This document shows, piece after piece, positions 38 through 30,972 of a stretch of DNA of 64,000 nucleotides. Made by a program: the position numbers and the translations under genes. Below the pieces are notes generated by a model that saw only the letters and a program-made list of their open reading frames with translations, did not search any database and was not told where the DNA came from. Source of the DNA: Levilactobacillus mulengensis (GTDB lineage: Bacteria; Bacillota; Bacilli; Lactobacillales; Lactobacillaceae); the NCBI RefSeq assembly GCF_003946045.1, contig NZ_RHNW01000006.1:62001-126000 (forward strand). The letters run 5' to 3'. Each line of letters opens with the position of its first letter. Positions within the stretch are counted from its first letter, which is position 1.

Positions 38-328
38 TGCCAGCCGGCTCTTTCAGCCGTTGTTAGCGACCAGAGGCGAATCAAGGTGACCTGCTGTGTC
101 GATGGCGTTAGCTGAGGTCCCTCACTCAGCTTAGGCCATGGGGCGACCTTTGAGACCGCTCCTCAGGCTCAAAGTCGAGGTGGAAGCCCGCTTCTCAAAC
201 AGCGGTTGTTTCCCACAATCACTCAAGCAAAGAACCGATGCTAGTCTAGGGACGGCAGCCACGGCCGTCAGCACCGGCATCAACCTCTGCCAGCCGGCTC
301 TTTCAGCCGTTGTTAGCGACCAGAGGCG
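38..328 (+). repeat. 41-bp exact direct repeat flanking structured repeat R1
   Basis: The 41 bases at 38-78 and 288-328 are identical and lie 250 bases apart. Each begins in a CAGCCGGCTC-type segment and ends at the ACCAGAGGCG start motif of a structured repeat, R1 and R2. Downstream of the motif the two copies diverge strongly in sequence while keeping the same fold. This looks like a tandem duplication of the repeat's leading edge, or two insertions of one element type side by side. Confidence 0.9.
61..230 (+). repeat. Structured intergenic repeat R1 (3' end degenerate)
   Basis: This is a non-coding element of the multi-hairpin family described in the findings. P2 pairs 102-116 with 125-139 and contains the family's T.T mismatch (109.132). 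P3 is CTTTGAG/CTCAAAG (148-154/168-174) with the A.G mismatch (155.167). The left arm of P1 (AAGGTGACCTGCTGTG type) is present near 83-98, but its right partner is not recognisable, so the 3' end appears truncated. It lies beyond the 3' end of the deo genes, on the opposite strand. Confidence 0.8.
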
Positions 329-508
329 GTTTCGCGGACGCAGCTGTGTCGGTGGTGTTAGACCGAGTGCTTTTTCTCGGCCTTACACCACGGGACGACC
401 TGGGAAACTCGCGCCCCTTGGCGAGGTTTCTAGGCGAGACGGAGGACCGCTTCTCAGGCCGCAGTCGTTCCCCACAGCAGCGGTAGCGAAGACCGCCGCC
501 GGGAGCGG
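311..508 (+). repeat. Structured intergenic repeat R2
   Basis: This copy has a very divergent sequence but the same fold. P1 pairs the segment starting GCGGTTTCGC (near 326-346) with the segment near 466-489 ending GCGAAGACCGC. P2 pairs 352-367 with 376-391 (T.T at 359.384, plus one A.C). P3 pairs 399-412 with 421-434 and keeps the A.G mismatch (407.426), although the usual CTTTGAG/CTCAAAG helix is completely rewritten. It is the best single witness for compensatory change in the family. Confidence 0.85.
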
Positions 509-515
509 ACCCCAA

Positions 516-556
516 CAACAAAAAAGAGCCAGCCGACAAGGAACGCCGACTGGCTC
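516..556 (-). terminator. Rho-independent terminator after pdp
   Basis: Read on the minus strand, GAGCCAGTCGGCG pairs with the following CTGGCTC-ending arm to give a stem of about 13 bp including G.U pairs. A run of T residues follows directly (the A-run at 516-523 on the plus strand). It sits just downstream of the pdp stop and ends the deoR-pdp transcript. Confidence 0.85.
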
Positions 557-580
557 GTAGGAGATGAAGCGCGGTTCTGA

Positions 581-1879
581 CTACCGAACCGTTTCGTGAA
601 TCAGCGTAATTGGTTTAGCTGAATCGCTAATTTCAATGTTCTTGTAAAGCATGTCCTTGATGTCATCAACATCTTCACGGTTACTGTAGATGGTCAAGAG
701 CGTGTCGCCGGTCTTAACGGCGTCACCGATCTTCTTGTTCATCATGATACCAACCGCGTAGTCCAGCTTGTCGTCAGCCTTTTGCCGGCCACCACCGAGT
801 AACATCCCGGCGATACCCATTTCATCGGCTTCAACCTTGCTGACAACCCCGTCAGACTTGGCTGGCAAGTCAATCTTGTATTTGGCTTGTGGCATGATTT
901 CTGGGTGTTCGATGACACTCCGGTCGCCGCCTTGGGCTTCGATCATGTCGCCGAACTTCTTCAATGCGGAGCCGTCTTCGATGGTCTTTTCACACATTGC
1001 CCGGGCCGTCTTCAAGTCGTCAGCCTTCCCAGACATGACAACCATGTGAGACCCTAACGTCAAGACTAAGTCGGTAATGTCGGCTGGTGCTTGGCCCTTT
1101 AAGAGGTCGATGGATTCCTTGATTTCCAAGGCGTTCCCAATGGCGTTCCCCAAAGGTTGGTTCATATCGGAAATGATGGCCATGCAGTTCATGCCGACCC
1201 CTTTACCAATACCCACTAAGGCTTTGGCCAATTCACGTGAGTCGTCCAAGGTCTTCATGAAGGCACCCGCACCGGTCTTAACGTCGATAACTAAGGCGTC
1301 GGTCCCGGAAGCAATCTTCTTGCTCATGATGGAACTAGCAATCAACGGAATGGAGTCAACCGTGTCGGTGACGTCCCGCAGCGCGTAGATTTTCTTGTCG
1401 GCGGGGGCAATGTTCCCAGTAGCCCCAACGATAGCCAAACCTTGGTCCTTCACTTGCTTCTTAAATTCGTCTTCACTGATTTCAACTTTGTATCCTGGAA
1501 TCGCTTCCAATTTATCCAAAGTACCACCCGTGTGACCCAGGCCACGGCCAGAGATCATTGGAACGGGAATTCCTAATGCGGCAACGATTGGCGCCAATGG
1601 AATACTGGTCTTGTCACCCACACCACCGGTCGAGTGCTTGTCGACTTTAATGCCAGGGATGCTGGATAAGTCCAAATGGTCCCCGGACTTCATCATGGCC
1701 ATGGTCAGCTCTGAGCGTTCAGCGTCGGTCATGTCGTTGAAGTACGTTGCCATCAAGAAGGCACTGGTTTGGTAATCTGGAATTTCACCGGAAACTACCC
1801 CATCAACGAAGGTTTGGATTTCTTCCTTAGTTAATTCGCCACCGTTACGTTTCTTATCAATAATATCTACCATTCTCAT
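581..1879 (-). CDS. pdp: Pyrimidine-nucleoside phosphorylase
   Basis: This 432-residue cytoplasmic enzyme splits uridine, thymidine and deoxyuridine with phosphate into base plus (deoxy)ribose 1-phosphate. It shows the nucleoside phosphorylase II signatures: an N-terminal helical domain starting [10 protein letters not shown], the phosphate-binding [12 protein letters not shown] segment near residue 80, and [16 protein letters not shown] near residue 109, which is the family signature. The length is normal. It is the last gene of the deo cluster, 37 bases after deoR and in front of a terminator, so it is probably co-transcribed with its regulator. ATG follows a GGAG 10 bases upstream; a second ATG two codons later is also possible. 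Pdp rather than thymidine phosphorylase is chosen from the Gram-positive context. Confidence 0.95.
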
Positions 1880-1916
1880 GTTTCAGCCACTCCATTTCTA
1901 ATTGGGATAAACGTCG

Positions 1917-2873
1917 CTACTGTTTCGGCGTGTCCTTAAGTAGTTGTGCTGCTGCGTGTTGATCAATAATGAGGCAATTCGGGTAGCCGCCCAGTAAGGC
2001 TGCTTTCACGGCGGGGACTTTGGCATCCCCGGCCGCCACCAGAATTGAGTGTTCCTTTTGCTTTAAGCTTTCTAAATTAATGCCGATGGTCCGTTCATTC
2101 AGCTGTGGATTAACGATTTCACCATTTTCATCAATGTAGCGCGAGAAGATATCCCCCACCGCATGGGCCTGTAAGGATTCCTTTTCAGGTTCCTGCAGGT
2201 ATCCCAGCTGAAAGACCAACGCATTGTTGCGGACCGTCCCGACAGAATAAATCGCGATATTGGCTTTCTCGCCCAACTCAAGCAGATACTGAATGTGCCG
2301 TTCCTTCTCCACCAATTCCTTAGTTTGTTGGTGGTCGAAGATGACGGGCAGTGGTAAGTACTGCGGCACCGCGTGAAAAGCATTGGCAAAGGCGTCGATG
2401 CTCTCGTAAGCGTAGGTGTGCTCAGTGGAGTAACTCACACTCCCCTTAAGTTGAATGACCTCTACCCCGGTCAGGGTATCGGGTTGTAAATTGGAGCCAA
2501 TGGCGTAGATGGTCTTGCCCCAACCAATCCCGATAACATCGTGTTCCTGCACAATGTCTTCGAGATAGCGAGCGGCATACGACCCCACCGCGTTTAAAAT
2601 GTCACCAGTTGCGGTCAACTGCGTGGGCACCACGTGAACCTCCACGTGATAGGCCGCACCTAACGCATCTTCCAGCGTCTGCACGTCCTGCACGGGGTCC
2701 ACGATTTGAATTCGCACTAAGCCTTGTTCTCTAGCAAACTGAAGGAGCCGGGAAACCGTCGGCCGGGAAATCCCCAACTGTTGGGCAATCTGACTTTGAC
2801 TCTGATCAGCTTGGTAATACATCTTGGCAACGGTTAGTCCTTGGGCCAAGCGCTGTTCGGTCGTCTCTGCCAT
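1917..2873 (-). CDS. deoR: DeoR-type transcriptional regulator (SorC family)
   Basis: This 318-residue regulator has an N-terminal helix-turn-helix (SQSQIAQQLGISRPTVSRLL, about residues 28-47) and a C-terminal SorC-type sugar-phosphate sensing domain containing GIGWGKT and SVGTVRNNALV-like segments. In Bacillus the homologue represses the deo genes and is released by deoxyribose 5-phosphate. The position between deoD and pdp supports the same role here. The chosen ATG at 2873 lies eight bases after GGAGG; an ATG at 2879 is too close to that site. A structured repeat (2924-3150) and a terminator separate it from deoD, so it probably has its own promoter or depends on readthrough. The likely operators are the palindromes upstream of deoC. 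Confidence 0.92.
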   Translation of the reverse strand: MAETTEQRLAQGLTVAKMYYQADQSQSQIAQQLGISRPTVSRLLQFAREQGLVRIQIVDPVQDVQTLEDALGAAYHVEVHVVPTQLTATGDILNAVGSYAARYLEDIVQEHDVIGIGWGKTIYAIGSNLQPDTLTGVEVIQLKGSVSYSTEHTYAYESIDAFANAFHAVPQYLPLPVIFDHQQTKELVEKERHIQYLLELGEKANIAIYSVGTVRNNALVFQLGYLQEPEKESLQAHAVGDIFSRYIDENGEIVNPQLNERTIGINLESLKQKEHSILVAAGDAKVPAVKAALLGGYPNCLIIDQHAAAQLLKDTPKQ

Positions 2874-2923
2874 TCCCATTTCCTCCTCATTATTGGTTAT
2901 TTATTTTCTTTGGTGCGACGAAT

Positions 2924-3150
2924 AGTGAAAACACGACGATGTGGTCGTTCCCGCCGGTGGGTTCAAGGTGCCCTGCTGTGGGGCCGGTTCCAGCCTGAAA
3001 TGCGGGCTTCCACCTCGCCTTTGAGCCATAGTCCGGTCTCAAAGGTCGTCCCATGCTCTAAACTGAGAAAATCACTCAGTTAAGACCATCGACACAGCCG
3101 GTCACCTTGACCCACCTCTGGTCACTAACAACGACGTTACCATTTTCACT
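2924..3150 (-). repeat. Structured intergenic repeat R3, inside the deo cluster
   Basis: This copy is inverted, with element polarity on the minus strand. An extra outer stem joins AGTGAAAA (2924-2931) to TTTTCACT (3143-3150). On the plus strand P2 pairs 3053-3067 with 3075-3089; the T.T of the element strand is seen as A.A (3060.3082). P3 is CTTTGAG/CTCAAAG (3019-3025/3038-3044), with A at 3037 opposing G at 3026 on the element strand. P1 joins GGTCAAGGTGACC-like and GGTTCAAGGTGCCC-like arms. It separates deoD from deoR. Confidence 0.85.
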
Positions 3151-3384
3151 TTCGTAGCCAAATACCTACCGTCTGATTCACAGTCATGCCATAATCACTT
3201 GGCTGTCTGTGTACCAGGCGCTCTGTTCCTATCAGCCGCCGGTTCCGAGCGCCACGGTCCCGGCACTGATACTTTTCGCTAACTATCCAAAGAGTGTTTC
3301 ACCCTTGACCTACCCAAATTATCTTCACCAGGATAGTTTGAGTAGCCACTTAGCTATTCACCCTCTGGTTCATTACCTAATAGA

Positions 3385-3421
3385 AAAGGCGGGCGCGTCT
3401 CTTTAGTCCGCACCCGCCACT
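3385..3421 (-). terminator. Terminator after deoD
   Basis: On the minus strand GGCGGGTGCG pairs with CGCGCCCGCC across a short loop, followed by TTTTCT. It begins four bases after the deoD stop. It should end or attenuate the deoCBD message before deoR-pdp. Confidence 0.85.
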
Positions 3422-3424
3422 TCA

Positions 3425-4132
3425 TTACGCTTTAACGGCTGTGTCTAAAGCAACCTTGATCATATCGTTGAAGGACTTTTCCCGTTCTTCTGGCGTCGTT
3501 GATTCACCGGTAATCAAGTGGTTACTGATGGTCAAGACGGAAAGTGCGCGAACATGGTACTTCGCAGCTAACAGGAAGAGCGCCGTTGATTCCATTTCAG
3601 TGGCAATCACACCGTAATCAATCAGCTTTTGCCGATCCATTTCGTCGTTGTAGAACCGATCTTCGGCTAAGATGTTCCCCACCCGAACTGGGATCTTCAA
3701 GTCTTGGGCCACGTGGTAAGCGGTGTCCAACAGACCAAAGTCACTGATTGGAGTGTAGTACATCCCTGCGCCAAAGGTGTTTTGGATAATGGAAGAATCC
3801 GTTGAAGCGGATTGGGCCAAGACCACGTCGCGAACGTGAACGTCTGGGCTCATCCCACCGGAAGTCCCTACCCGGAACAACGTCTTTACGCCGTATTCAC
3901 TAATCAGTTCGTTGGCGTAAATGGAAATTGAAGGAATCCCCATCCCAGTGCCTTGCACGGAGATACGCTTGCCCTTGTAAGTCCCGGTGTAGCCAAAGCA
4001 GTTCCGGACCTTATTGTAGCAAACTGGGTTTTCTAAGAAGGTTTCAGCAATGTACTTTGCCCGTAATGGGTCACCGGGAAGTAAAACAGTGTCAGCAATG
4101 TCGCCCTTTTTAGCTTCAATATGGTTACTCAT
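3425..4132 (-). CDS. deoD: Purine-nucleoside phosphorylase (DeoD type)
   Basis: This 235-residue enzyme performs phosphorolysis of (deoxy)inosine, (deoxy)guanosine and probably (deoxy)adenosine in the cytoplasm. The length and sequence match the hexameric PNP/UDP phosphorylase family: [14 protein letters not shown] near the N terminus, the [16 protein letters not shown] segment around residue 61, and the [14 protein letters not shown] substrate-binding segment near residue 177. It starts ATG with AGGAGG upstream and lies 31 bases after deoB in the same direction. Its product, (deoxy)ribose 1-phosphate, is the substrate of the neighbouring DeoB. It is followed at once by a terminator. Confidence 0.96.
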
Positions 4133-4163
4133 GATTAGTTCCTCCTAAAATGGTTGTGGTTAC

Positions 4164-5351
4164 CTATTTCAAGTCTGCCAAGAAACTGTGGCCTTCATCG
4201 TTGCCAGCCACGCCAAAGTTATCCAAGACCGTTGCCCCAAAGTCAGAGAACGGTGAACGAACGCCTAAGCTCCCACCTTGCTTGATGCTTGGTGAGTAAA
4301 CCAGCAATGGCACTTGTTCACGAGTGTGATCGGAACCTGTAAAGGTTGGGTCGTTCCCGTGGTCAGCGGTGATCATCAGCAGGTCATCGTCATGCATGTT
4401 GTCTAAGACAGTGCCGAGGCGCTTGTCAAAGTCCATCAGTGCTTGCCCATAACCTTCTGGGTTGCGCCGGTGGCCATACATAGCATCGAAATCAACTAAG
4501 TTAATGAAGCAGAAACCGGTAAAGTCTTCTGCCATGACGTGGTCGACGTGGTCCATCCCGTCCATGTTGCTTTCGTTATGGTAGCCTTCGTCGATCCCAT
4601 GACCGGAGAAGATATCATTGGTCTTCCCAACGGCAACGACGTGGACACCAGCTTTTTGTAAGCGGTCCAGGTCAGTTTCGCCAGTTGGTTCCAACGTGAA
4701 GTCACGCCGGTTAGCGGTCCGGGTAAAGTGGTCCTTGTCAGGGCCAACGTATGGCCGTGCAATGATCCGGCCGACTAAGTATTCTGGGCCGTTGACCAAT
4801 GAACGCGCGTACTCACAGATCTTGTAAAGTTCTGCCAAAGGAATGACATCTTCATGGGCAGCAATTTGCAAAACGGAGTCGCCAGAGGTGTAGACGATCA
4901 AGTCGCCCTTGGCCATCTGTTGTTCCCCTAATTCAGCAATGATCTTGGTCCCGGATTCTGGCCGGTTACCAATGACTTTGCGGCCAGAGAACGCTTCCAA
5001 TTTGTCGATGATGTCGGCTGGGAAGCCGTTAGGGAACGTGCTCAGTGCTTTACGAACTGGCAAGCCCATCATTTCCCAGTGACCATCCATGGAATCCTTA
5101 CCGGCTGAGATTTCGCGCATCTTACCGTAGTAGGCCTTAGGATTATCCGCAACGGGAACCCCTTCGATGGGGGTGTCACGCAAGTTAGATAACCCAATCT
5201 TAGCCATGTTTGGTAAGGCTAATTTGCCGGCGAAATGCTGGCCGATGTGGCCCAGCGTATCTGCGCCTTCATCGCCATATTTAGCGGCATCGGGAGCGGC
5301 CCCGGCACCAACTGAGTCAATTACTAAGCCAAAAATACGTTTGTACTTCAT
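4164..5351 (-). CDS. deoB: Phosphopentomutase
   Basis: This 395-residue metalloenzyme of the alkaline phosphatase superfamily interconverts (deoxy)ribose 1-phosphate and 5-phosphate. Visible motifs are [13 protein letters not shown] near residue 10 (metal-binding Asp), [13 protein letters not shown] near residue 85 (phosphorylated Thr/Ser region), and the C-terminal metal ligands in [15 protein letters not shown] and [10 protein letters not shown]. The length is normal for the family. It lies between deoC and deoD with gaps of about 31 bases, so it is co-transcribed with them. It links the nucleoside phosphorylases to the aldolase. Confidence 0.97.
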
Positions 5352-5382
5352 ACCTTATTTACCCGCTTTCACAAATTAAATT

Positions 5383-6069
5383 CTAGTAACCGGACTTTTC
5401 GGCTGGTGCACCAGTCAAGATAGCAACCGTGGCACTGACACCTAAACGGCTAGCACCGGCATCGATCATTTCAACGGCTTCGTCCCAGCTATGAACACCA
5501 CCAGAAGCCTTAACGCCTAAGCGGTCGCCAACAGTTTCGCGCATCAATTTAACGTCTTCAACCTTGGCACCGGCAGTTGAGAAACCAGTTGAGGTCTTCA
5601 CGAAGTCTGCGCCGGCCTTTTCGCTTAACTTGCAACCGAGAACGATTTCGTCTTTGGATAACAGGCAAGTTTCCAAGATAACTTTCAAAATCTTACCCTT
5701 GGCGTGAACAGCGTCGGCCAATGACTTGATGTCAGCTTCAACAACATCATTGTTACCAGACTTTAATTCACCAATGTTGATCACCATGTCGATTTCTTCG
5801 GCGCCGTCATCGATAGCCTTTTGCGCTTCGAAGACTTCGCTATCAGTTGCCATGGCCCCGAGTGGGAAGCCCACAACGGCGATTGGGTTAACGTCGCTGT
5901 CCTTCAATTGCTCAGCAACGAACGGAATCCAGTAGGAGTTTACACAGACGGAAGCCGTGTCAAATTTCTTTGCTTCGTCACAAGTTTCTTTGATGCTGTC
6001 TTTAGTTGCATCTGCCTTTAAGTTAGTGTGGTCAATGTATTTTGCTAATTGTGCTTTCGTTAATGTCAT
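5383..6069 (-). CDS. deoC: Deoxyribose-phosphate aldolase
   Basis: This 228-residue class I aldolase cleaves 2-deoxyribose 5-phosphate to glyceraldehyde 3-phosphate and acetaldehyde. The Schiff-base lysine lies in [15 protein letters not shown] (about residue 150), and a second active-site lysine lies in LGVKASGGV. The N-terminal [10 protein letters not shown] segment is also typical. It is the promoter-proximal gene of the deo cluster. ATG at 6069 follows GAAAGGGG. Upstream lie a near-consensus promoter, two palindromes and a cre site, described separately. Confidence 0.97.
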
Positions 6070-6099
6070 TATATGAAACCCCTTTCATTTATCACCAAT

Positions 6100-6128
6100 A
6101 GCATACCCAATTCCTGCACATTTGTAAA
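6100..6128 (-). promoter_or_regulatory. Promoter of the deo operon
   Basis: On the minus strand TTTACA (6128-6123) and TATGCT (6105-6100) are separated by exactly 17 bases. The predicted start point is about 25-30 bases upstream of the deoC ATG. It is the best hexamer pair in the region. Confidence 0.85.
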
Positions 6129-6136
6129 CCCCTGAA

Positions 6137-6172
6137 TTGAACCGCTGTTCAAAAACGTGCACCTTTGTGCAG
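6137..6172. promoter_or_regulatory. Paired palindromic operator candidates for DeoR
   Basis: TTGAACCGCTGTTCAA (6137-6152) is a perfect palindrome with a four-base centre. It is followed by a second inverted repeat, TGCACCTTTGTGCA (6158-6171). Both lie just upstream of the -35 box of the deo promoter. The first resembles the TTGAA/TTCAA half-sites known for Bacillus DeoR operators. Assignment to the encoded DeoR is inference from location and symmetry. Confidence 0.7.
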
Positions 6173-6232
6173 AATCCTGCAAGAAAAGTTTCACTTTCCG
6201 GGTTTACCGTTTTACTTAATTGAAGCCCGTTC

Positions 6233-6246
6233 TGATAACGTTTTCA
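6233..6246. promoter_or_regulatory. CcpA-binding cre site upstream of deoC
   Basis: Read on the minus strand this is TGAAAACGTTATCA, which fits the cre consensus TGWAANCGNTNWCA at every fixed position. It lies about 105 bases upstream of the deo -35 box, so the deo genes are probably under carbon catabolite control by CcpA, whose gene is not in this window. At this distance CcpA could activate or act by looping. Confidence 0.75.
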
Positions 6247-6314
6247 TTTTTACTTGTGAAATTAATTAGTTCAGGGGACGGACGTTAAAGCCCCTCATTT
6301 TGTTAGAAAAAATT

Positions 6315-6358
6315 TTTTCAAAAAAATCGGCTGGATTAAAAATCCGGTCGATTTCTGG
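6315..6358 (-). terminator. Terminator after the secreted-protein gene
   Basis: The stem AAATCG.CTGGATT / AATCCGG.CGATTT around an AAA loop is followed on the minus strand by seven T residues. It lies about 80 bases downstream of the stop at 6438. Confidence 0.8.
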
Positions 6359-6437
6359 TAAATTTGGTCTTCAAGTACGAATTTGTTACCAAGCGTTCCT
6401 AGCAGTCGTCAGCCAGTTTCTCTCAGGCAGCAGCGAA

Positions 6438-7295
6438 CTAGTCTGGCATGTTGTCCCGAATCTTCTGACCAACTTCTGTGTTGGTGGGGCAGAACAACGC
6501 ATGCTTCTCACTAACATAGTAGGTATCCCACTTGTCCGTAATGGCCTTATAGGTTGCCGGCGTGAAGTCGCTCTTCATGATGCTGACCTGCATGGGCACT
6601 GAAAATAGACTTTGCGTGACGTAAGGAAAGCCGTCTTCATCGTAAGGTACATCATCAACGTAATAGAACGTTAAACCATTGACCTCGCCCTTTAGATCCG
6701 GCAGACTTAGCCAATCATTCCAGGACACATGTTTGGTGTCTTTGATGTAGAGTTTAGCGTTGTTGGTAGCAGTCGGCGTCGTCTGACTTGATTGGGTCTT
6801 ACTCCCCGCGGTCTTAGTGGCCGCGGTCGACTTGGTAGGCTTGGTAGTCGTCGATGGCATGGTGGTTGCGGTTGAAGACGTTGTTGGCGTCGTCAACTGA
6901 CTGTTGGTCTCGGAACTACGCTTCGTTTGTTTCTTCCGCCCATTGTAATAGGTTAAGTATTTTTCATTGACCCAGGCGCCCTTACCTTTGTAAGTCACAT
7001 ATTCGTATTCAGTCGGGTGCTTGTCTCCCAGTGAGATGCCCTTAACCTGATAAACCACCTTATTTTTCATAGTCCCTAAACGATACGCCCGCTTCAAACG
7101 ATAACGGTTATGTCTAACTTTATGTAAGGTGTACGCGTAATGCTTGTACCCCGACTTGCGAAAATTAAATGGATTATATGCTCGCGAATGCACCCAATTC
7201 AATTGATAACTCTTGTCAGCGTGCGCCGTCTGTGGCACCAGGCCACCCCCGATTAACCCGCCGAAAACTAACAATCCCACAATACTCTTCTTCAT
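6438..7295 (-). CDS. Secreted hypothetical protein with Ser/Thr-rich linker
   Basis: This 285-residue protein belongs to no family I can name. Residues 1-26 form a clear signal peptide (MKKSIVGLLVFGG, then cleavage near TAHA-DKS). Residues 27-120 are basic and tyrosine-rich and end in YKGKGAWVNEKYLTYYNG, similar in style to short surface-protein modules of lactobacilli. Residues about 128-195 are a low-complexity Ser/Thr/Lys linker. Residues 196-285 form a second globular part with several aromatic and acidic residues. There is no LPXTG or membrane anchor at the C terminus. The ATG at 7295 is preferred over one at 7304, which abuts the AGGGG ribosome binding site. It has its own terminator and stands alone. 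Confidence 0.75.
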   Translation of the reverse strand: MKKSIVGLLVFGGLIGGGLVPQTAHADKSYQLNWVHSRAYNPFNFRKSGYKHYAYTLHKVRHNRYRLKRAYRLGTMKNKVVYQVKGISLGDKHPTEYEYVTYKGKGAWVNEKYLTYYNGRKKQTKRSSETNSQLTTPTTSSTATTMPSTTTKPTKSTAATKTAGSKTQSSQTTPTATNNAKLYIKDTKHVSWNDWLSLPDLKGEVNGLTFYYVDDVPYDEDGFPYVTQSLFSVPMQVSIMKSDFTPATYKAITDKWDTYYVSEKHALFCPTNTEVGQKIRDNMPD

Positions 7296-21187: not shown

Positions 21188-21400
21188 CGTGAACACAGTC
21201 CTCTCTGTAATTAGTCTTGAATAGTATACCAAAAAAACATACGTTCTGCTGGAAGTCTCCCCGATATTTCAAAAGAAATTTTGGGGACCGCTGCCATAAT
21301 TTTAACGGTTAAAAAGCCGTGCACACCAATAAACGCACCCAATCAGCCAGCCGGGTGATCAGATGCGCCATGTCACTGTTTTAATTTGGTCGTTGATTGC

Positions 21401-21579
21401 GCCTCCGGGGGCGTGAGAATGGGACCGGAACGCTGTGGGCGAACGCCCGGAGCCAAAGAGCGGTCTCCGCGCTTACTTTGAGCCACCCAGGTGTCTCAAA
21501 GATATCAATGTTCTAACCGGCCAAGAACGCCGCTAAGAACATTCCCACGGCTAAGCCCATTCTCACACCCCCTGCGGCT
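21401..21579 (-). repeat. Structured intergenic repeat R4a
   Basis: This copy has element polarity on the minus strand. P1 includes the perfect 11-bp pairing GTGAGAATGGG (21413-21423) with CCCATTCTCAC (21556-21566). P2 pairs plus-strand 21507-21521 with 21529-21543; the element-strand T.T is A.A here (21515.21535), with one further G.G. P3 is CTTTGAG (21476-21482) with CTCAAAG (21495-21501), and its A.G lies at 21494.21483. P4 is CGGAG/CTCCG with loop ACCGCTCTTTGG. It is bounded by GCCTCCGGGGG and CCCCTGCGGC. Confidence 0.88.
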
Positions 21580-21663
21580 AATACTGGCTTTAAAACCAGC
21601 GTCACGCCACGTGGTCATCCCAACCGCCGCTAGTCAACTGAATGTGAACAAGTCAACCGCTTG

Positions 21664-21850
21664 TCAGCCGGGAGGGCGGCGAAAATAAACTCAGCCGTGG
21701 GAATTATCTTAACGGTCGATTTTGACCGTTTAGATAATTGGCGACTTTGAGACTCGCTTCTTGAGGCTCAAAGCGAGTCTGAAGACCGCCCTTTGGCTTC
21801 AGGCGTCCGCCCACCGCGTTCCGGTTTATTTTCGCCGCCCGGTAAGGCGC
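21664..21850 (+). repeat. Structured intergenic repeat R4b
   Basis: P1 is a perfect 17-bp stem: 21674-21690 (GGGCGGCGAAAATAAAC) with 21824-21840. P2 pairs 21702-21717 with 21724-21739, perfect except the T.T at 21710.21731. P3 is CTTTGAG (21745-21751) with CTCAAAG (21767-21773), A.G at 21752.21766, then an extra CTC/GAG. P4 is CTGAAG/CTTCAG (21779-21784/21797-21802), A.G at 21785.21796. This is the cleanest copy in the window. Confidence 0.92.
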
Positions 21851-21878
21851 GGACAAAGACCTGCTGGCTTCTTCACTT

Positions 21879-23797: not shown

Positions 23798-24706
23798 TTA
23801 ACCCAACCACAGGCCGAGCAATTCCGAGATAACCGTCACCAACGCTAAGATTCCCAAGCTCCGGACGGCCAAAATAAAGGTTTCCTTCTTCACTTGAACG
23901 CGAAACAGTCCACGCACGTTGCGGACAATCAGGGGGACACTGATCAGCGCCAGCAACGACCATTTGGGCAGGTCGCCGAGCAGCACACTGACAATCAATG
24001 AGAGATACCCAATCACGTAGAAGCTGGCAAACAGCCATAAGGCCCCCTGCTTGCCCAAGTAGTAGACAATCGTCTTGCGGTTCAGACTCAGGTCCTCGGC
24101 GGCGTCACAGATGTTATTAGCTAGCAATAACGCGGCAATGGCCATCACGGCAATCCCGGAAGCCAGTAAAACCCGACCCATGAGCGGCCAAGTGAAAGCG
24201 GACGTTTGATAAAGGTTTAAATAAACCGTGATCAGCATGATCATATAGCCCATGGTAAAACCGGCAAAGAACTCCCCCGTAGGCGTGCCAGATAAGGGCC
24301 GTGGCCCCCCGGCGTACAGGTAGCCCACGAGGAAACAAAAGACTCCCATGACCAGTAACGGCCAGCCGGTCACCCAGACCAGGTACAGGCCAATGACCCC
24401 CGCCACGACCGCCATGCTCGCCATCAAGGCAAAAATCCGGTTAACGGCCAGGTGATGGACCCCAATGATGTTGGTGTACTTCTTCCACTCGGCGGCCTGA
24501 TTGCCCGCCTTGGTGTAATCCTGATAATTATCATTGATATCCACGGCCATGTTAAAGAGCAACATCGCCACGAAAAACAACGCGGTAACGCCCCAATTCA
24601 CGTGTTGATAGTTGGCCTGCACAAAAATGACACCCAATAAAAATGGCCAAACAGACGCAATTTTGGCTTTGATTTCAACGAGTTCGAGAAAGGTACTGAC
24701 GGTCAT
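23798..24706 (-). CDS. menA: 1,4-dihydroxy-2-naphthoate polyprenyltransferase
   Basis: This 302-residue integral membrane UbiA-family prenyltransferase joins a polyprenyl chain to DHNA to make demethylmenaquinone. The two aspartate-rich motifs are present: DINDNYQDY near residue 55 and CDAAEDLSLNRKT near residue 180, among about eight or nine hydrophobic segments. ATG at 24706 follows AGGAGGA by six bases. The frame stays open upstream to 24949, but that part is translated repeat DNA. No other men gene is in this window, so DHNA may come from outside. The divergent prenyl synthase at 25441 can supply the chain. Confidence 0.93.
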   Translation of the reverse strand: MTVSTFLELVEIKAKIASVWPFLLGVIFVQANYQHVNWGVTALFFVAMLLFNMAVDINDNYQDYTKAGNQAAEWKKYTNIIGVHHLAVNRIFALMASMAVVAGVIGLYLVWVTGWPLLVMGVFCFLVGYLYAGGPRPLSGTPTGEFFAGFTMGYMIMLITVYLNLYQTSAFTWPLMGRVLLASGIAVMAIAALLLANNICDAAEDLSLNRKTIVYYLGKQGALWLFASFYVIGYLSLIVSVLLGDLPKWSLLALISVPLIVRNVRGLFRVQVKKETFILAVRSLGILALVTVISELLGLWLG

Positions 24707-24865
24707 ACGGATTCCTCCTGAGTTTTTAAAAGTTTCAATGCTATAATGATTTGGCCTCCGACTTAGTGCGGACACGAGACTGCCGAATAGGCCGAGAGTT
24801 ATGTAGGCTAAACATTTTGTCGTGCGACACCCTACTACAAAAAATGAACACGTAGATTCAGCTAA

Positions 24866-24934
24866 CAAAGCCTGCCGCTCAGGCTGGAACCAACCCCACA
24901 GCAGGGCACCTTGAGCGCGCCGCCGGAAACGGAT
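24866..24934 (+). repeat. Repeat fragment R5a (right half only)
   Basis: The segment from GCTGGAACC through CACAGCAGGGCACCTTGAGC to GCCGCCGG matches the right P4/P1 arms of repeat R8 (30893-30938), but the left half of the element is absent. It lies 46 bases upstream of complete repeat R5b and is probably a remnant. Confidence 0.8.
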
Positions 24935-24980
24935 GTGCCACGACCCCACGTTAATCGCAAGCCCACGGGCTAAACCAGTG

Positions 24981-25129
24981 TCAGCCGCAGGGCTGGTGAA
25001 AATGGGCTCAGCCGTGGGAGTTGCCTTAGCGGGTTTCCCGCTTAGGCAACTGCTATCTTTGAGACTCGCTTCTCAGAGGCTCAAAGTAAGCCCACAGCAT
25101 CACGGCCCATTTTCACCAGCCCGGAGGCG
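24981..25129 (+). repeat. Structured intergenic repeat R5b (short form without P4)
   Basis: P1 is a perfect 18-bp stem, 24990-25007 (GGGCTGGTGAAAATGGGC) with 25105-25122. P2 pairs 25019-25033 with 25037-25051 around a TTT loop, perfect except the T.T at 25027.25043. P3 is CTTTGAG (25057-25063) with CTCAAAG (25080-25086), A.G at 25064.25079, then CTC/GAG. The P4 hairpin is missing; the strand passes directly to GCCCACAGC and P1. Confidence 0.92.
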
Positions 25130-25377
25130 ATGTTAACACTTAGTTTAGCCACAATTTGATAATAGCCCATACCTGCGGTGAGTTCAACCGCCACGGATGT
25201 GGGTTAGCCCGCTCACTCAGTCCCCCACAAATTAGTTTTTACCCCTAACGATTCCACCAGCGTTACGTCATTCACCGTCCACCCCGGCAATCCCTAATTT
25301 CACGCCATTTTCTGCGAATTTGGTTCGACTCGGTCTCCAATCGTCCTAACAAATTCAAACAACAGAGTAACCTTTAT

Positions 25378-25406
25378 TTGACAACGTTTCCACATGCCGG
25401 TAAGAT
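25378..25406 (+). promoter_or_regulatory. Promoter of the polyprenyl diphosphate synthase gene
   Basis: A perfect TTGACA (25378-25383), a 17-base spacer and TAAGAT (25401-25406), about 35 bases before the ATG. Confidence 0.85.
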
Positions 25407-25440
25407 AAATTTTAACGTAACATACATAGCGAGGTGCAAA

Positions 25441-26418
25441 ATGGATCGACAACTTTGGCGGCAATTTCCACAAGTAGAACCGCAACTGGATGCGCTACAG
25501 GACTACCTTTTTCGGGCGGTTCAGCTGGATAACCAACCCATCCACAGCAAAATATTAGCGTTGTTAAAATCTGGCGGCAAGCTGTTGCGTCCTGGATACT
25601 TTTACCTATTCTCTAAATTCGGGAACCAGGGCACGCCGGCGGAATTGCAGGCTGGCGCGGCGGCACTAGAAATTCTGCACGTCGGGACCCTGATTCACGA
25701 CGACGTCATCGATGAGTCCCCGACCCGGCGTGGCGTCCGCACGATTCAGATGAAGTATGGCCAACGCAATGCCATTTATGCCGGCGATTTCATGTTTACG
25801 GTGTACTTTAACCAGGTCCTAAAGGCCACGGCCGACCGGCACATGGTGCAGGAACACATCGACGCCATGCACCGCATCCTGCAGGGAGAACTCCACCAAA
25901 TGGACCTCAACTATCGCGAGGATATTACGGTTGACGCCTACCTCAACGAAGTCGCCGGCAAGACTGCCGAGCTGTTTGCGCTGAGTTGCTATACCGGTGC
26001 CAAACTTTCCGGTGCACCAGCCAGCGTGGTGGCCATCACCCGTGAGATTGGGATTGCCATTGGTTGCGCCTACCAAATGCTCGACGATATTCTGGATTAC
26101 GCGGGCGACCCGGCCAAAACTCAGAAGCCGGTTCTGGAAGACTTGCGTTCCGGCGTCTACTCTTTGCCACTAATTCTAGCGATTCCCCAGGCTAAACGCG
26201 ACTTCCACCACCTGTTGCGTAAGAAAAAGGACATGACGGTAGCCGACATCCAGGCCGTTCAGGCGTTGGTCGCCCAGTACCACGGCATCGAATCTGCTCG
26301 CCAATTGGCGCTGGCCCACACGGAAAAGGCGTTGGAACTGATTCAACAATTGCCAGCCGGTGAGGCCCAGGCCGACCTGGAAAAACTCACGACCATGCTC
26401 CTACGGCGTGATCACTAA
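25441..26418 (+). CDS. Polyprenyl diphosphate synthase (heptaprenyl synthase component II type)
   Basis: This 325-residue trans-prenyl transferase elongates farnesyl diphosphate with isopentenyl units to make the quinone side chain. The two aspartate-rich motifs are DDVIDESPTRRG (about residue 90, first DDxxD) and DDILDYAGD (about residue 215, second DDxxD); the KSGGKLLRPG segment near residue 43 binds diphosphate. ATG at 25441 follows GCGAGGTG. It is divergent from menA and next to the cyd genes, so a role in menaquinone supply is likely. Chain length cannot be read from the sequence with certainty; the names hepT and ispB are both used for such genes. Confidence 0.9.
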   Translation: MDRQLWRQFPQVEPQLDALQDYLFRAVQLDNQPIHSKILALLKSGGKLLRPGYFYLFSKFGNQGTPAELQAGAAALEILHVGTLIHDDVIDESPTRRGVRTIQMKYGQRNAIYAGDFMFTVYFNQVLKATADRHMVQEHIDAMHRILQGELHQMDLNYREDITVDAYLNEVAGKTAELFALSCYTGAKLSGAPASVVAITREIGIAIGCAYQMLDDILDYAGDPAKTQKPVLEDLRSGVYSLPLILAIPQAKRDFHHLLRKKKDMTVADIQAVQALVAQYHGIESARQLALAHTEKALELIQQLPAGEAQADLEKLTTMLLRRDH

Positions 26419-26429
26419 TCAACGAAACT

Positions 26430-26468
26430 AGTAAAGGGTCATCCCCGCGTGAGGATGACCCTTTTTGT
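26430..26468 (+). terminator. Terminator after the prenyl synthase
   Basis: GGGTCATCC pairs with GGATGACCC, followed by TTTTTG. It lies between two convergent genes. In the minus direction (cydC) the trailing T-run is weak. Confidence 0.85.
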
Positions 26469-26477
26469 ATACTCATT

Positions 26478-28214
26478 TTATTTTCCGCGGTCCAAGTCGT
26501 ACAACGCCCTGAATCGGGCATTGCCACGGTACAGTTCGACTGGCGTCCCCTGCATGTCGAAGCGGCCGTTTTCAATGAAGCGGACCTGATCGACGTGGTT
26601 GATGCCGGCTAAATGGTGCGTGACCCAGATAATCGTCTTGTCGTGGAGCACGCTGAAGACCGTGTCCAGCAGGTGTTGTTCGGTAATCGGGTCCAGGCTC
26701 ACGGTTGGCTCATCCAAAATGATAATGGGCGCGTCCTGCAAGAGAATCCGCGCCAAGGATAGCCGTTGCCGTTCCCCACCAGAGAACCGGCTACCGGCCT
26801 CCTGAACTTCCGTGTCGTAGCCCTGAGGTAGCCGACCAATCAGATCATCCAGTTCAACGGCTTTGACGGCCGCGTGAACATCCGCATCGGTGGCATTTAA
26901 ATTCCCCAAGCGCACGTTGTTCATCACGGTCGTGTCGAACAGGTACGGCTGCTGATCCAGCACGCCAAAGAGTTGCGCCCGTTGCTGCTGGAGCTGGGCA
27001 ATCGGCACCCCGTTGAGCGTCACCTGACCACTAGCCGGCGTTTCGTCCCCCAAAATCAGCTTGAGCAACGTACTCTTCCCCGTCCCACTGGGACCCAACA
27101 AGGCTAATTTTTCACCCGGATGGAGCTCGAGGGAGAGATCATCAATGACTTGGCGTTCGGCCCCCGGATACGTGAAGGCCACGTGGTCCAGTTGTAGCGT
27201 CGGCGCCCCGTCAATCGTGGTTTGTGGCGCCTGTTCCGGTTCATTTTCATCCAAGCGGTTGACCCGTTCGATGGAATCCTTGTAGACCGGCCACTCGCTG
27301 ACCCCTTGGCTCATGCTTGAGAACGGTTCGACGGTCGGAAACAGTGCCAACCCAAAGGCGGCGACCCAGTTGGCCTCGGCCTGATTGTGGGTAAACGTCA
27401 ATCCGGCCCACCAAACGATCAGCACAACTGCTGCCCCGAAGACGACCTGAATGGCAAAGTTCCGCCACCACTGGAAATGGTGATCGGCCCGTCGCAGCGT
27501 GGCAATCTCATCGATGGGTTGGTCCTGTTGTGCTAGGAAGGCCGTCCGCCGACCAGAAATGAGCCAATCGCCCAAGCCCAGTACGGAATCGGTCAGTTTG
27601 GTATAAAAATTCCGTTGCACCTGGCGTGCTTGGAACTCGCGGCGACCGTTTACCGTCACGGACAACAACGGCATGAAGATGACAATCACACCCAACAGTA
27701 ATAGCATCAACAGGCCAAACGCCCAGTTGAAGTAGCCGATGCCGATGACCACGAATAGATATAGCAGCCAACCAATCACTAGGGGAAAGACCGTCCGCAG
27801 ATACAGGTTTTCAATGTGGTCGATGTCTTCGGCTAAAATACTGAGGACATCCCCCGTCTGGTGCGTCTGGCGAATGGCGACCGCTTGCTTTTCCACGGCC
27901 TGATACAGCCGCTTCCGGAAGTCCGAAACGATTCGCAGCACCCAGTTGTGACTGGTCAGTCGTTCCGCGTAACGGAAGGCTGGCCGGCCAATCCCAAAGG
28001 CCCGGGCGAGCACGATGGGCACGTAAATCATCAAAATGTTATACGGATGGGTGGCGGCCCGGCTAATCAGGTAGCCGGAGTTAAACATCAGCGCGCCCCC
28101 ACAGAAGAAGGTCATGAAGCCCAGGAATAGAACCAGCGCCAACAGTTTCCGGTAGCGCCGCAGGTACGGCATGACCCAGTGATCGTGCTTAAATGTCGCA
28201 AAAAATCCCTTCAT
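26478..28214 (-). CDS. cydC: Thiol reductant ABC exporter subunit CydC
   Basis: This 578-residue half-transporter has a six-helix membrane domain (about residues 20-310) followed by an ATPase domain. Walker A is LGPSGTGKSTLLKLI near residue 370, the signature is FSGGERQRLSLARI, and Walker B is PIIILDEPTVSLDP. With CydD it is thought to export glutathione or cysteine and is needed for assembly of cytochrome bd. Its start overlaps the cydD stop by four bases, so the two are translationally coupled. It differs from cydD in having a shorter N-terminal region. Confidence 0.94.
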   Translation of the reverse strand: MKGFFATFKHDHWVMPYLRRYRKLLALVLFLGFMTFFCGGALMFNSGYLISRAATHPYNILMIYVPIVLARAFGIGRPAFRYAERLTSHNWVLRIVSDFRKRLYQAVEKQAVAIRQTHQTGDVLSILAEDIDHIENLYLRTVFPLVIGWLLYLFVVIGIGYFNWAFGLLMLLLLGVIVIFMPLLSVTVNGRREFQARQVQRNFYTKLTDSVLGLGDWLISGRRTAFLAQQDQPIDEIATLRRADHHFQWWRNFAIQVVFGAAVVLIVWWAGLTFTHNQAEANWVAAFGLALFPTVEPFSSMSQGVSEWPVYKDSIERVNRLDENEPEQAPQTTIDGAPTLQLDHVAFTYPGAERQVIDDLSLELHPGEKLALLGPSGTGKSTLLKLILGDETPASGQVTLNGVPIAQLQQQRAQLFGVLDQQPYLFDTTVMNNVRLGNLNATDADVHAAVKAVELDDLIGRLPQGYDTEVQEAGSRFSGGERQRLSLARILLQDAPIIILDEPTVSLDPITEQHLLDTVFSVLHDKTIIWVTHHLAGINHVDQVRFIENGRFDMQGTPVELYRGNARFRALYDLDRGK

Positions 28215-29944
28215 CGTGTCGTCGCTCCTTCCATTTCAGACCGCAACCGAACGTAGGCGCCGTTTCTCTCCTGAAGCTCGGCAGGGGTCCCCTGCTCCAC
28301 GATTTCGCCGTGGTCCATCACTAAAATATAATCCATTTCATTCATCCAATGAAGCCGGTGGGTCGCGAAGAAGACCAAATGATTCGCAAAGACTGGCATC
28401 ATGGTTTGTTTCAGTTCCACTTCGGTTTCAATATCCAAGTGCGCCGTGGGTTCGTCGAATAGCAGGACCCGCCGTGAATCATCCAGGAAGGCCCGGGCCA
28501 ACGCAATCCGTTGGGCCTGGCCCCCACTGACGCCCCGGGCCCCTTCACCAATCTGGGTGTCCAAGCCGGCTGGCAAGGAGGCAATCCAGTTGGTCAACCC
28601 GGCTTTGGCGGCAGCGGCAGTAACGGCCGCTTCGCTTGCATCCGGCGCATAGAAGGCCAGGTTGTCCCGCAAGCTGGCATGGAACAGGTACGGCGCCTGT
28701 GGAATATAAACGAAGCTGCGTTGCCAGGCCTTCTGGTCGAGGTGTGGCACCTGCGTTCCGCGAACGTGAATTTGCCCATCTTGGGGGCTCAGAAAACCAC
28801 CCAACGTGTTGATCAGGGTCGACTTCCCGGAACCTGAGGCCCCAATGATGCCGACCTTTTGAAAGCCGTGCACATCAAACGTGATATCCTTTAACGTCGC
28901 CGCATCCTCGCCATAGGCCACGTTCACGTGATCAAAGCGCACGTCATCGTCAGCCGTCCACACGGGCTCGCGGGCCGGTAAGAGCTCCCGGTCGCTCGGC
29001 GTTTCGCGTTGTAAAATATCCAGCACGGCCGTCAACGCATTCTTCCCGTTCAGGGTCGCGTGATAGTCGTTAGCAAAGTTTCGAATTGGGGCAAAATAAT
29101 CTGGTGCCAGGGTCAAAATGACCAATGCTGGCAGGAGTTGAATCGAATTATTCATCAAGCCAAAACCCAAGAAAACGGCAATAATGGCGATCGACAGCGT
29201 CGTGAAAAAGTCCAACGCAAACGTTGACGTCATGGCAATCGTCAGCGTCGCCATGGTCTTCTTACGATAATCCTCACTGACTTGATAAACGTTGTCCGCA
29301 TACTTTTCGTTCAAGCCTAACTGCTTCAGAGTTGGCAGACCCCGCAGCGTATCCACAAAGTGATTGGATAGCCGTTGGTAGCCGGCGTATTGCCGGTCGG
29401 CCTTGGCCTGGGCCGCGAGTCCCAAGATAATCATAAAGATAATAATCAACGGGTAAATAGCCAGTAGGAATAGCGCTTCTTTCCACTGGATAAAGGCGAT
29501 GTAGATCAGCACCAGCCAGGGCGTAATCGACAGGTCCAGCACTTTCCCGATGATCATCATCAGGTAGGTTTGAATCTTGTCGATACCTTCCAGGCCCATG
29601 GTGACTACGTTTCCGGTCCCCTTCTCGGCCACCACGCTGGGGCCCAGGTCAAACAGCTTGGCCATAAAGTCCTTCCGCAATTTCTTAGTCGTTCGTTCGA
29701 CAAACGGATACATGAGCCAATCCTTTAAGAGTGTCAGCAAATGACGCGCCAGAAAGGCGACCGCAAACACCGCCAACGGCTCGACAATCGTGTCAATCGG
29801 CTGTTGTTTCCAGAGCTGAACAATTGCGGCCGACAAGTACTGCGCCTGAATAATAATCATAATAGCTTGAATCACCGTCAGTACCGCCTCAATCACTGCG
29901 GCCGGTTTCACACCTGGAAATTTAAAAACTCGTGAATCAATCAA
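28211..29944 (-). CDS. cydD: Thiol reductant ABC exporter subunit CydD
   Basis: This 577-residue partner of CydC has membrane helices in residues 15-300 and an ATPase domain with Walker [17 protein letters not shown], signature VSGGQAQRIALARAF and Walker B RRVLLFDEPTAHLD. The start codon is TTG, seven bases after GAGGGGG. The upstream region carries a 19-bp inverted repeat at 30015-30069 and then a cluster of structured repeats that separates it from cydAB, so cydDC is likely a separate transcription unit. Confidence 0.94.
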   Translation of the reverse strand: MIDSRVFKFPGVKPAAVIEAVLTVIQAIMIIIQAQYLSAAIVQLWKQQPIDTIVEPLAVFAVAFLARHLLTLLKDWLMYPFVERTTKKLRKDFMAKLFDLGPSVVAEKGTGNVVTMGLEGIDKIQTYLMMIIGKVLDLSITPWLVLIYIAFIQWKEALFLLAIYPLIIIFMIILGLAAQAKADRQYAGYQRLSNHFVDTLRGLPTLKQLGLNEKYADNVYQVSEDYRKKTMATLTIAMTSTFALDFFTTLSIAIIAVFLGFGLMNNSIQLLPALVILTLAPDYFAPIRNFANDYHATLNGKNALTAVLDILQRETPSDRELLPAREPVWTADDDVRFDHVNVAYGEDAATLKDITFDVHGFQKVGIIGASGSGKSTLINTLGGFLSPQDGQIHVRGTQVPHLDQKAWQRSFVYIPQAPYLFHASLRDNLAFYAPDASEAAVTAAAAKAGLTNWIASLPAGLDTQIGEGARGVSGGQAQRIALARAFLDDSRRVLLFDEPTAHLDIETEVELKQTMMPVFANHLVFFATHRLHWMNEMDYILVMDHGEIVEQGTPAELQERNGAYVRLRSEMEGATTR

Positions 29945-30014
29945 AATAAAGCCCCCTCACAACAAGTGATAACTCATACTGCCATGATAGCATTTTTTAG
30001 GTATCTAAGCGCTA

Positions 30015-30069
30015 CCAATCAGTTGTAACCAACATCTTTTTGACAATTTAGTTGGTCACAACTGATTGG
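30015..30069. promoter_or_regulatory. 19-bp inverted repeat upstream of cydD
   Basis: CCAATCAGTTGTAACCAAC (30015-30033) pairs with GTTGGTCACAACTGATTGG (30051-30069), with one A.C mismatch and a 17-base loop. It lies about 70 bases upstream of the cydD TTG start. No proper T-run follows on the minus strand and only a modest one on the plus strand. It could be a regulator-binding site, a plus-strand terminator or the end of a former mobile element. Confidence 0.7.
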
Positions 30070-30101
30070 CTTTTGTAGTTTTGCGTTGACGTTCTCGCCT
30101 G

Positions 30102-30281
30102 CGGAAGCCAAGGAACGCGCCCCTGGGACCCGACCGAAGCCAAAGACCGGTCTTCGGTCTCGCCTTGAAGCTTCACCCACCCCGTGAATCTCCAAGGTCG
30201 GTCCGTGCTCTAGGCCCGGCAAAAAGCAGCCGAACCAAGACCACCGACACGGGCACGCTCCTTGACCTCCTCCGGCTTCAC
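30102..30281 (-). repeat. Structured intergenic repeat R6
   Basis: This copy has element polarity on the minus strand. P1 joins CCAAGGAACGCGCCC and GGGCACGCTCCTTG with wobble pairs. P2 joins plus-strand 30204-30219 and 30225-30244; the element T.T appears as A.A (30211.30236), with one bulged base. P3 pairs 30163-30176 with 30183-30196; A.G lies at 30188.30171 between two helices rewritten relative to the other copies. P4 is a perfect 8-bp stem GACCGAAG/CTTCGGTC (30132-30139/30152-30159), A.G at 30151.30140. It is intermediate between the other subtypes. Confidence 0.88.
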
Positions 30282-30428
30282 TTGACAACAACCGCCAAGC
30301 TAACCGGTTGTGGCAACAATCGTTCAGCTGTTTCCTGCCATCTGACTAGCTTACTCGTAGACGGGCTCAATATGTACACACTAATATACAGGAGAACACA
30401 GTCAATAACGACTACCACTGGATTAAAC

Positions 30429-30657
30429 CAATGTCAGACGCAGGGCTGGTGAAAACCAGGCCGGCAAGGTCAGTGTCAGTGACCAGAGGCGGATCAAAGT
30501 GACCCGCTGTGTCGGTGGTCTTGGCTGAGGTCCTTTCTCAGCCTAGCCCACGGGACAACCTTTGAGACCGCCTTTTGGCTCAAAGTTGAGGTGGAAGCCC
30601 GTCCTTCGGTTGAAACCGGCCCCATAGCCGGGCACTTTGAATCCGCCGCCGGGAACG
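30429..30657 (+). repeat. Structured intergenic repeat R7
   Basis: The left edge carries GGGCTGGTGAAAACC, as in R5b, but the matching right arm is missing. The inner element is complete. P1 joins CAAAGTGACCCGCTGTG-like and CATAGCCGGGCACTTTG-like arms. P2 pairs 30515-30529 with 30537-30551 (T.T at 30522.30544). P3 is CTTTGAG (30560-30566) with CTCAAAG (30579-30585), A.G at 30567.30578. Confidence 0.88.
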
Positions 30658-30721
30658 AACCTCAACACAACCCATGTCACTTCCTAAGAAACACTCCCAC
30701 ACCACACTAAGTTGAACCACT

Positions 30722-30972
30722 TTCAGCCGCCGGAGCTGGGAAAACTGGGCCGGTCGTAGAAGTGACCAGAGGCGAGCCAAGGTGCCCCGCTGTGTCGATG
30801 GCCTTGGCTGGGGTTCTGTCCCAGCCTAGCCCACGGGACAACCTTTGAGACCGCACCCAGGCTCAAAGTTGAGGTGGAAGCCCGCCCTTCGGCTGGAACC
30901 GGCCCCACAGCAGGGCACCTTGAGCGCGCCGCCGGGAACGGAAACGGCCAGGCCCAGTTTTCACCAGCTCGG
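30722..30972 (+). repeat. Composite structured repeat R8 (two nested P1 stems)
   Basis: The outer stem pairs 30733-30751 with 30951-30970 (GAGCTGG.GAAAACTGGGCC type, one bulge). An inner P1 pairs 30779-30794 with 30906-30921 (16 bp, one mismatch). P2 pairs 30798-30812 with 30820-30834 (T.T at 30805.30827). P3 is CTTTGAG (30843-30849) with CTCAAAG, A.G at 30850.30861. The outer stem is of the R5b kind and the inner element of the R1/R7 kind, so this copy joins the two subtypes. Confidence 0.9.

Follow-up and report, generated by a model that had tools for sequence, protein, structure and literature searches.

A genus-wide, high-copy family of structured intergenic elements in Levilactobacillus, with purifying selection on the fold as the simplest reading of its divergence

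The 64,000-nt stretch of the Levilactobacillus mulengensis genome analysed here (contig NZ_RHNW01000006.1, positions 62,001 to 126,000; hereafter the window) holds nine copies and one fragment of a structured intergenic element, members of a real, high-copy family that is found throughout the genus. An original prediction, made from the window sequence, had proposed these ten features and their mixed orientations, and all of them were confirmed by our covariance model or sequence profile. The elements, which are 200–310 nt long, have a fold with strong covariation. Their turnover takes place at existing sites, through internal deletions, tandem duplications, local changes in number and replacement of one head type by another; insertion elsewhere was not seen among the three sister species compared. 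The simplest reading of their divergence at individual sites would be purifying selection on the fold.

The evidence for the fold comes from an alignment of 63 sequences. We collected 117 heads (the multi-helix part of the element, borne on an outer stem) from several Levilactobacillus species, reduced them to 72 with a mutual similarity below about 88%, and left out nine of these, six of type B (described below) and three truncated. RNAalifold predicted 30 pairs on this alignment, 27 of them with two-sided compensation; to these the 37-pair structure of the covariance model adds the stem base and a further two pairs in P4. In the alignment 95.0% of cells pair, two-sided changes occur at 31 of the 37 pairs (19.9 ± 1.6 in shuffles), and the covariation score is 0.456, as compared with 0.185 ± 0.006 after shuffling and at most 0.107 with slid partners. 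The helices covary beyond both kinds of control, as expected for a structured RNA, and the fold was also recovered in genera outside the model set; the earlier observation that both strands of the helices change together was right. The head consists of a closing stem, P2, and a short GGG/CCC helix below which lie P3 and P4, with strongly conserved strands between the helices. A T-T mismatch within P2 is present in 61/63 sequences, and the internal loop of P4 reads GGA/GGA in 26/63. The description of the family as defined by fold, not sequence, is borne out as regards the fold but not as regards freedom of sequence, as the junction strands, the internal loop of the A stem and the P2 T-T mismatch are all strongly conserved.

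The original prediction also assumed a single family fold. The outer stem is indeed shared, but the heads are of two types: type A (R1, R2, R3, R5a, R6, R7 and R8 in the window) and type B (R4a, R4b and R5b), which is shorter and is without the middle of the A stem and its conserved internal loop. Full-length type A elements (40 copies) have 62 predicted pairs, 28 of them two-sided (13 of 22 in the arm zone), and full-length type B elements (33 copies) have 55, 31 of them two-sided (15 of 26 in the arm zone). In these full-length copies the outer arms pair too; in the best copies they pair with ends reading GGGYTAAAC and GTTTAACCC, although the ends differ by site.

The host genome (G000; 3.11 Mb in 36 contigs) yielded at least 57 matches to a 216-base query, with 40 of 330 candidates scored. 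Twenty 20-kb stretches at set places, a systematic sample covering 400 kb of it, contain 72 heads, which by extrapolation gives about 560 heads per genome or, at about 250 nt each, roughly 4–5% of the genome. Density is uneven, since a 240-kb contig stretch has 69 matches (two of which are halves of one copy split at the stretch border) and the window has nine. Along contig C12 of the host there are 64 elements in the 140 kb from 1 to 140 kb and 11 in the 100 kb from 140 to 240 kb, an approximately fourfold drop, which implies that parts of the chromosome are avoided by the family or have yet to be reached. Of 29 genomes sampled within the genus, 28 match; the counts are lower bounds, with at most 117 candidates scored per genome. 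Many relatives have more than 100, as against 30 in G013, 10 in G016 and none among 117 scored candidates in G022; the last two, set beside their high-copy relatives, offer a comparison from which a partner gene might be picked out. Of 198 genomes sampled across the order, four match: the host itself, two of one other genus (G192 and G130) and one of a third genus (G123), under strict filters and with 17 candidates scored per genome, so that weak cases may be missed.

A phage or plasmid origin is unsupported by our searches: blastn gave no match with three queries against 72,556 plasmids or with two against 50,697 phages. Scanning viral contigs twice for exact patterns turned up two real elements in one 1.6-kb stretch of a 20.8-kb contig, and one other match without an element. 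The two-element contig, L187 (IMGVR_UViG_2886212900_000003), carries one A-like and one B-like element by score, which may lie in host sequence flanking a prophage. The window copies are matched by no Rfam model, in line with the original prediction: at the gathering score the sole match in the whole window is the L13 ribosomal leader (RF00555; 45488–45546, minus strand), barely over that score, and a lax search of positions 1–33000 gave two matches (E 0.7–0.8), neither of which overlaps an element, and none on the copies up to E 5. No description of the family was found in the accessible portions of the literature searched, with subscription papers outside its scope; the available text of PMC2267715 lists one Lactobacillus, L. 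johnsonii.

Turnover was followed by aligning C12 through unique sequence to L. wangkuiensis (G012) and L. lanxiensis (G021) over a 130-kb span, with about 110 kb of aligned bases each, and by scoring site-by-species rows in which each place counts once per species. Elements are present on both sides in 92 of 99 element-bearing rows, and the seven one-sided rows hold fragments of 54–148 nt; in none of the 99 rows does a full-length element (at least 200 nt) face an empty site. A clean new insertion with a target duplication was not seen among the three sister species either, and the two aligned one-sided fragments are not clean; the pattern expected for a miniature inverted-repeat transposable element (MITE) of a DDE insertion sequence, with its target duplication and clean empty site, was seen in 0/99 rows. 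Orientation is the same in 54/54 one-to-one rows, and element number is equal in 31/47 and 33/52 rows for the two sister species.

The head type differs in 4 of 36 full one-to-one rows. In the alignments of these four sites the arms are site-specific and shared while the head is different; at one of them the head enclosed by the arms GGGATGGTAAAAA and TTTTTACCATCCC is of type A in two species and of type B in the third. In a recurrent arrangement (six cases inspected) the 5' part of an A element is followed by a second full element, each after a diverged copy of one unique flank, and this is a tandem duplication of the flank and 5' part; a comparable stretch of 46 nt is common to R1 and R2 in the window. 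At the place of R3 the head is absent and the arms are retained, with an identical junction, in L. lanxiensis and L. wangkuiensis, and loss of the head is likelier than gain because both sisters keep the arms with the same junction. We infer that stalling and template switching would occur at the folded strand, and that ectopic recombination would lie behind the exchange of heads. Over longer times places are gained and lost, since L. brevis CD0817 has no element at the corresponding place for three of the five element-bearing window regions and some of its own elements are without a window counterpart; the insertion-site comparison with L. brevis gave no clean breakpoints.

These longer-term gains and losses, the hundreds of intergenic copies and the resemblance of the ends to an imperfect terminal inverted repeat would be expected of a non-autonomous mobile DNA, MITE- or REPIN-like, whose fold is read as single-stranded DNA by a transposase or nuclease and whose present copies are mostly old insertions. 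Replication-strand counts also lend it something, with a lagging-to-leading ratio of 20:8 among the 28 lower-scoring B-like heads of the systematic sample and of 121:64 for matches above 60 bits (16:19 for weaker ones) in a partly hit-centred sample that pools C12, the window and 20 hit-centred stretches. However, the systematic sample as a whole shows 39:33, and its 44 best-scoring heads 19:25, which rules out a general bias and leaves at most one confined to type B or a subfamily. Candidate partner proteins are likewise unhelpful to mobile DNA. A Y1 transposase (PF01797) occurs in 21/29 genus genomes and is absent from the draft genomes G012 and G002, where 117/117 scored candidates are elements, and a reverse transcriptase (PF00078) occurs in 7/29 and is absent from the host's own draft assembly, which is rich in elements. 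Both were rejected as obligate partners on these grounds; the host assembly gave no match to the reverse transcriptase that a repeat borne by a retroelement (group II intron, retron or diversity-generating retroelement) would call for, and the proposed single-stranded DNA element is unsupported in its usual Y1-transposase form. The word "mobile" in the original prediction applies to past spread and not to current insertion at new sites, given that today's copies have kept their positions in the three sister species. With no clean insertion among those species and with resident copies under constraint, we regard mobile DNA as a rather unlikely account of the family, though the least unlikely of the rivals considered here.

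Constraint was measured on 62 pairs of orthologous heads, 21 of which, below 92% identity, were excluded from the main tests as probably replaced copies. In the 41 that are at least 92% identical, paired positions differ by 1.9% and unpaired positions by 6.1%, with flanks at about 7%. When positions are matched for between-copy diversity (0.2–0.6; 35 pairs at 24 sites), 32 of 1424 paired and 96 of 965 unpaired positions have changed, a ratio of 0.23 (95% interval 0.15–0.33, bootstrapped by site because ortholog pairs share the host copy), or 4.4 times less divergence at paired positions. Dropping the identity filter (52 pairs of sufficient score) gives a weaker contrast, 9.8% paired versus 17.6% unpaired. 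In the 26 pairs of at least 95% identity, columns conserved in the family changed at 13/1084 and variable columns at 51/1243. Across ortholog pairs, unpaired columns alike in all copies show 3 changes in 267; a separate count of unpaired conserved columns (14/903) includes some that are mostly gaps and is not relied on.

It could be argued that such a pattern needs no function, template-switch repair of DNA palindromes keeping the stems paired and gene conversion keeping the family alike. Quasi-palindrome template switching can correct stems, and the head replacements and tandem duplications show that recombination occurs at these elements. But repair would erase the conserved T-T mismatch of P2 rather than keep it, conversion between copies would bring changes into paired columns as readily as into unpaired ones of the same diversity, and neither would slow the unpaired columns that are alike in all copies, so this explanation appears very improbable. 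The strength of constraint also appears to vary with the direction of neighbouring genes: the ratio is 0.11 (7 sites), the strongest constraint, for elements with a gene reading into the plus strand and no gene reading the other way, 0.56 (3 sites), the weakest, where neither condition holds, and intermediate elsewhere. The numbers are small, and the pattern is a hint of RNA function through read-through.

Which strand folds was approached through wobble pairs. Among pairs predicted on both strands, the plus strand has 44 G-U against 17 A-C (25 pairs versus 7, p = 0.002), and the core alignment gives 16 pairs versus 7 (p = 0.09). In plus-strand predicted structures the G-U/A-C counts are 79/26 for the core alignment, 118/22 for full-length type A and 58/6 for full-length type B. 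The consensus fold is stronger on the plus than on the minus strand for type A (−80.5 versus −61.7) and slightly so for type B (−85.0 versus −80.3), while folds of single copies are about equal (−147.1 and −140.2 for A, −113.6 and −114.2 for B). Taken together, these values modestly favor the plus strand, as single-stranded RNA or DNA, as the folded molecule. Function at the RNA level is the leading reading, likely but unproven, and the proposal of a dispersed structured RNA gains from the apparent selection on stems of resident copies and from the modest plus-strand excess of G-U.

An RNA need not act within a message, and each copy could instead be an RNA gene, transcribed independently and acting in trans. 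The conserved multi-helix junction and unpaired strands would suit such a family, as would a U-U mismatch and a GGA/GGA loop of a kind common in RNA, the plus-strand wobble excess, and the constraint at sites that lack sense read-through. Yet inspection by eye, with no promoter scan made, revealed nothing shared ahead of GGGYTAAAC that looks like a promoter, and hundreds of copies with frequent deletion would be unusual for an RNA gene; we therefore consider independent RNA genes improbable.

In the 240-kb stretch and the window, 79 of 85 elements lie between called genes; of the other six, the 240-kb stretch accounts for three, each overlapping a called gene, and the window for three, two of them ahead of its first called gene and one overlapping a gene. 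Gene calling simply took the longest frames and discarded those more than 30% covered by elements, so the figure is partly built in. A coding element is unsupported, the elements being intergenic and the reading frames over them short, which agrees with the earlier statement that they do not encode protein. The median distance is 45 nt to stop codons (n = 138) and 114 nt to the start-codon side (n = 116), pooled over stretches of G000, G012 and G021 that are not independent. Elements occupy 14/49 convergent, 8/44 divergent and 31/157 tandem intergenic regions, and a terminator lies between stop codon and element in 32/138 cases, compared with 65/195 in element-free regions, a comparison that is uninformative. 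Proximity to stop codons and the distribution over convergent, divergent and tandem regions would be expected if the elements acted on either strand as transcription or message 3'-end elements (terminators, insulators or decay blocks). For this a simple stem would suffice, however, no T-run follows the stem in aligned copies, and the conserved junction bases would be left unexplained, all of which makes a plain 3'-end element still less probable than independent RNA genes.

Based on these results we can tentatively propose an account that we rate a little short of an even chance: a vertically inherited, genus-wide population of structured intergenic elements that spread in the past and whose selected plus strand acts as RNA through a host factor. 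The alignments show that a partly site-specific outer stem bears one of two multi-helix heads, A or B, whose junction is conserved, and that substitutions are resisted in the stems and at the conserved junction bases of resident copies. The plus strand would fold, most likely as RNA within transcripts running into the element, and a host factor would recognise the head and affect how the message decays or where its 3' end forms. The family would have spread by a route needing neither a Y1 transposase nor a reverse transcriptase, and ectopic recombination would swap heads and maintain the copies as one family.

Several observations weigh against this account. Large deletions, head losses and changes in number are frequent, and extra full-length copies arise beside existing ones; many single copies are therefore dispensable, and not every copy is needed. 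Constraint is also seen at sites without a sense-reading gene (ratio 0.31, 9 sites), and orientation ignores the genes, as the original prediction had noted, with 19 elements with and 27 against transcription in tandem regions; both are awkward for an RNA made by read-through. In the union of both folds, G-U:A-C counts are 124:160 for type A and 60:44 for type B, and the reverse strand folded alone likewise gives a G-U excess (149:30 and 44:22), so wobble counts from a single strand were rejected as proof of the strand, and of these counts only the one at pairs shared by both folds holds up. It is possible, if rather doubtful, that the elements form an undescribed class of structured RNA in which each genome has hundreds of selected copies, with exchangeable heads on site-specific stems and a host factor that reads the heads on transcripts genome-wide.

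Within the window, the proposed covariance search recovered all nine copies (E 8e-33 to 3e-8), with no further match at E ≤ 0.1 in the 64 kb under default filters; plain repeat finding alone pairs many of them. R1, R3, R4a, R4b and R5b are the cleaner tests of the model, because its training set held R7, the sole window member, and relatives' copies at the R2, R6 and R7/R8 places. R1 (58–219, core 93–219, plus strand) has a type A head, and the 46 nt of left flank and 5' arm that it has in common with R2 correspond to the direct repeat D8 (33–78 and 283–328). R2 (308–519, core 343–478, plus) is of type A with a long P3, and an element stands equally far from deoR in L. wangkuiensis, L. lanxiensis, L. 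brevis CD0817, L. zymae and L. acidifarinae. R3 (2903–3150, core 2975–3098, minus), of type A, lies upstream of deoR, whose product is identical over residues 2–320 to those of L. lanxiensis and L. wangkuiensis. The type B copies R4a (21378–21592, core 21432–21551, minus) and R4b (21643–21863, core 21694–21817, plus) are followed by R5a (24868–24955, plus), a 3' fragment of a type A element that is missed by the covariance model, detected by the sequence profile and eroded differently in the two sister species, and by R5b (24959–25154, core 25011–25106, plus), a type B element without most of P4; its counterpart in L. lanxiensis retains P4, and from that in L. wangkuiensis P2 and the 5' half of P3 are gone. 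The last three are of type A: R6 (30120–30266, core 30120–30253, minus), with poorly preserved arms, R7 (30406–30685, core 30506–30628, plus), with a short P3, and R8 (30705–31005, core 30789–30911, plus), with a short P3 and preserved outer arms. At the R8 place there are two plus-strand copies in the window, two and one partial in L. wangkuiensis and one in L. lanxiensis. Elsewhere, about 300 bp at 34815–35116 have no counterpart in either sister species and do not match the family, and opposite position 44593 L. lanxiensis has about 640 bp extra, flanked on both sides by the short sequence AAAAATCCCCACCAA, possibly a small gene gained or lost through recombination.

Among known repeats, REP and REPIN sequences sit near gene ends. 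The elements resemble those of the REPIN-RAYT systems of Pseudomonas and E. coli, which are hundreds of short, non-coding intergenic palindromes, long-lived in a lineage, and differ in length, in having a multi-helix head of two types and in lacking an obligate Y1 (RAYT) protein. The accessible text on REP and REPIN populations describes hundreds of intergenic copies and long persistence in a lineage (PMC8049555, PMC3116915). Our elements are high-copy, non-coding, palindromic and intergenic as well, and some carrier genomes are without a Y1 match. The bcr1 repeat of the Bacillus cereus group is another high-copy intergenic Firmicute repeat, of about 155 bp and with a predicted fold; compared by description only, the present elements exceed it in length and have a fold backed by covariation. 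ERIC, NEMIS/Correia and further MITE-like repeats are long imperfect intergenic palindromes, as here, but form near-simple hairpins with recognisable insertion sites, in contrast to a branched head and no clean insertion site. A covarying multi-helix fold and conserved loops are shared with lactobacillar, phage and plasmid RNAs of Rfam, such as Lacto-usp, GOLLD and HEARO, from which the elements differ by their high copy number and lack of an Rfam match. In the attC sites of integrons, too, the fold is kept while the sequence varies and is recognised as a single strand, but those form one-direction arrays adjoining the integrase, unlike elements scattered in both directions. The family belongs broadly with REP/REPIN and other intergenic repeats but is set apart by its branched RNA-like head, the in-place replacement of A and B heads, its positional stability and the apparent selection on it.

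In summary, a family that by extrapolation occupies several percent of its host genome, in a genus that includes easily cultured food bacteria, has no match in our Rfam searches and no description in the accessible part of the literature searched. High-copy structured intergenic repeats are usually taken for what small mobile elements have left behind. In this family a copy at a fixed site can be set beside its counterparts in other species, and such copies appear to be under selection on their fold; with this the question of whether such repeats serve the cell becomes directly testable.

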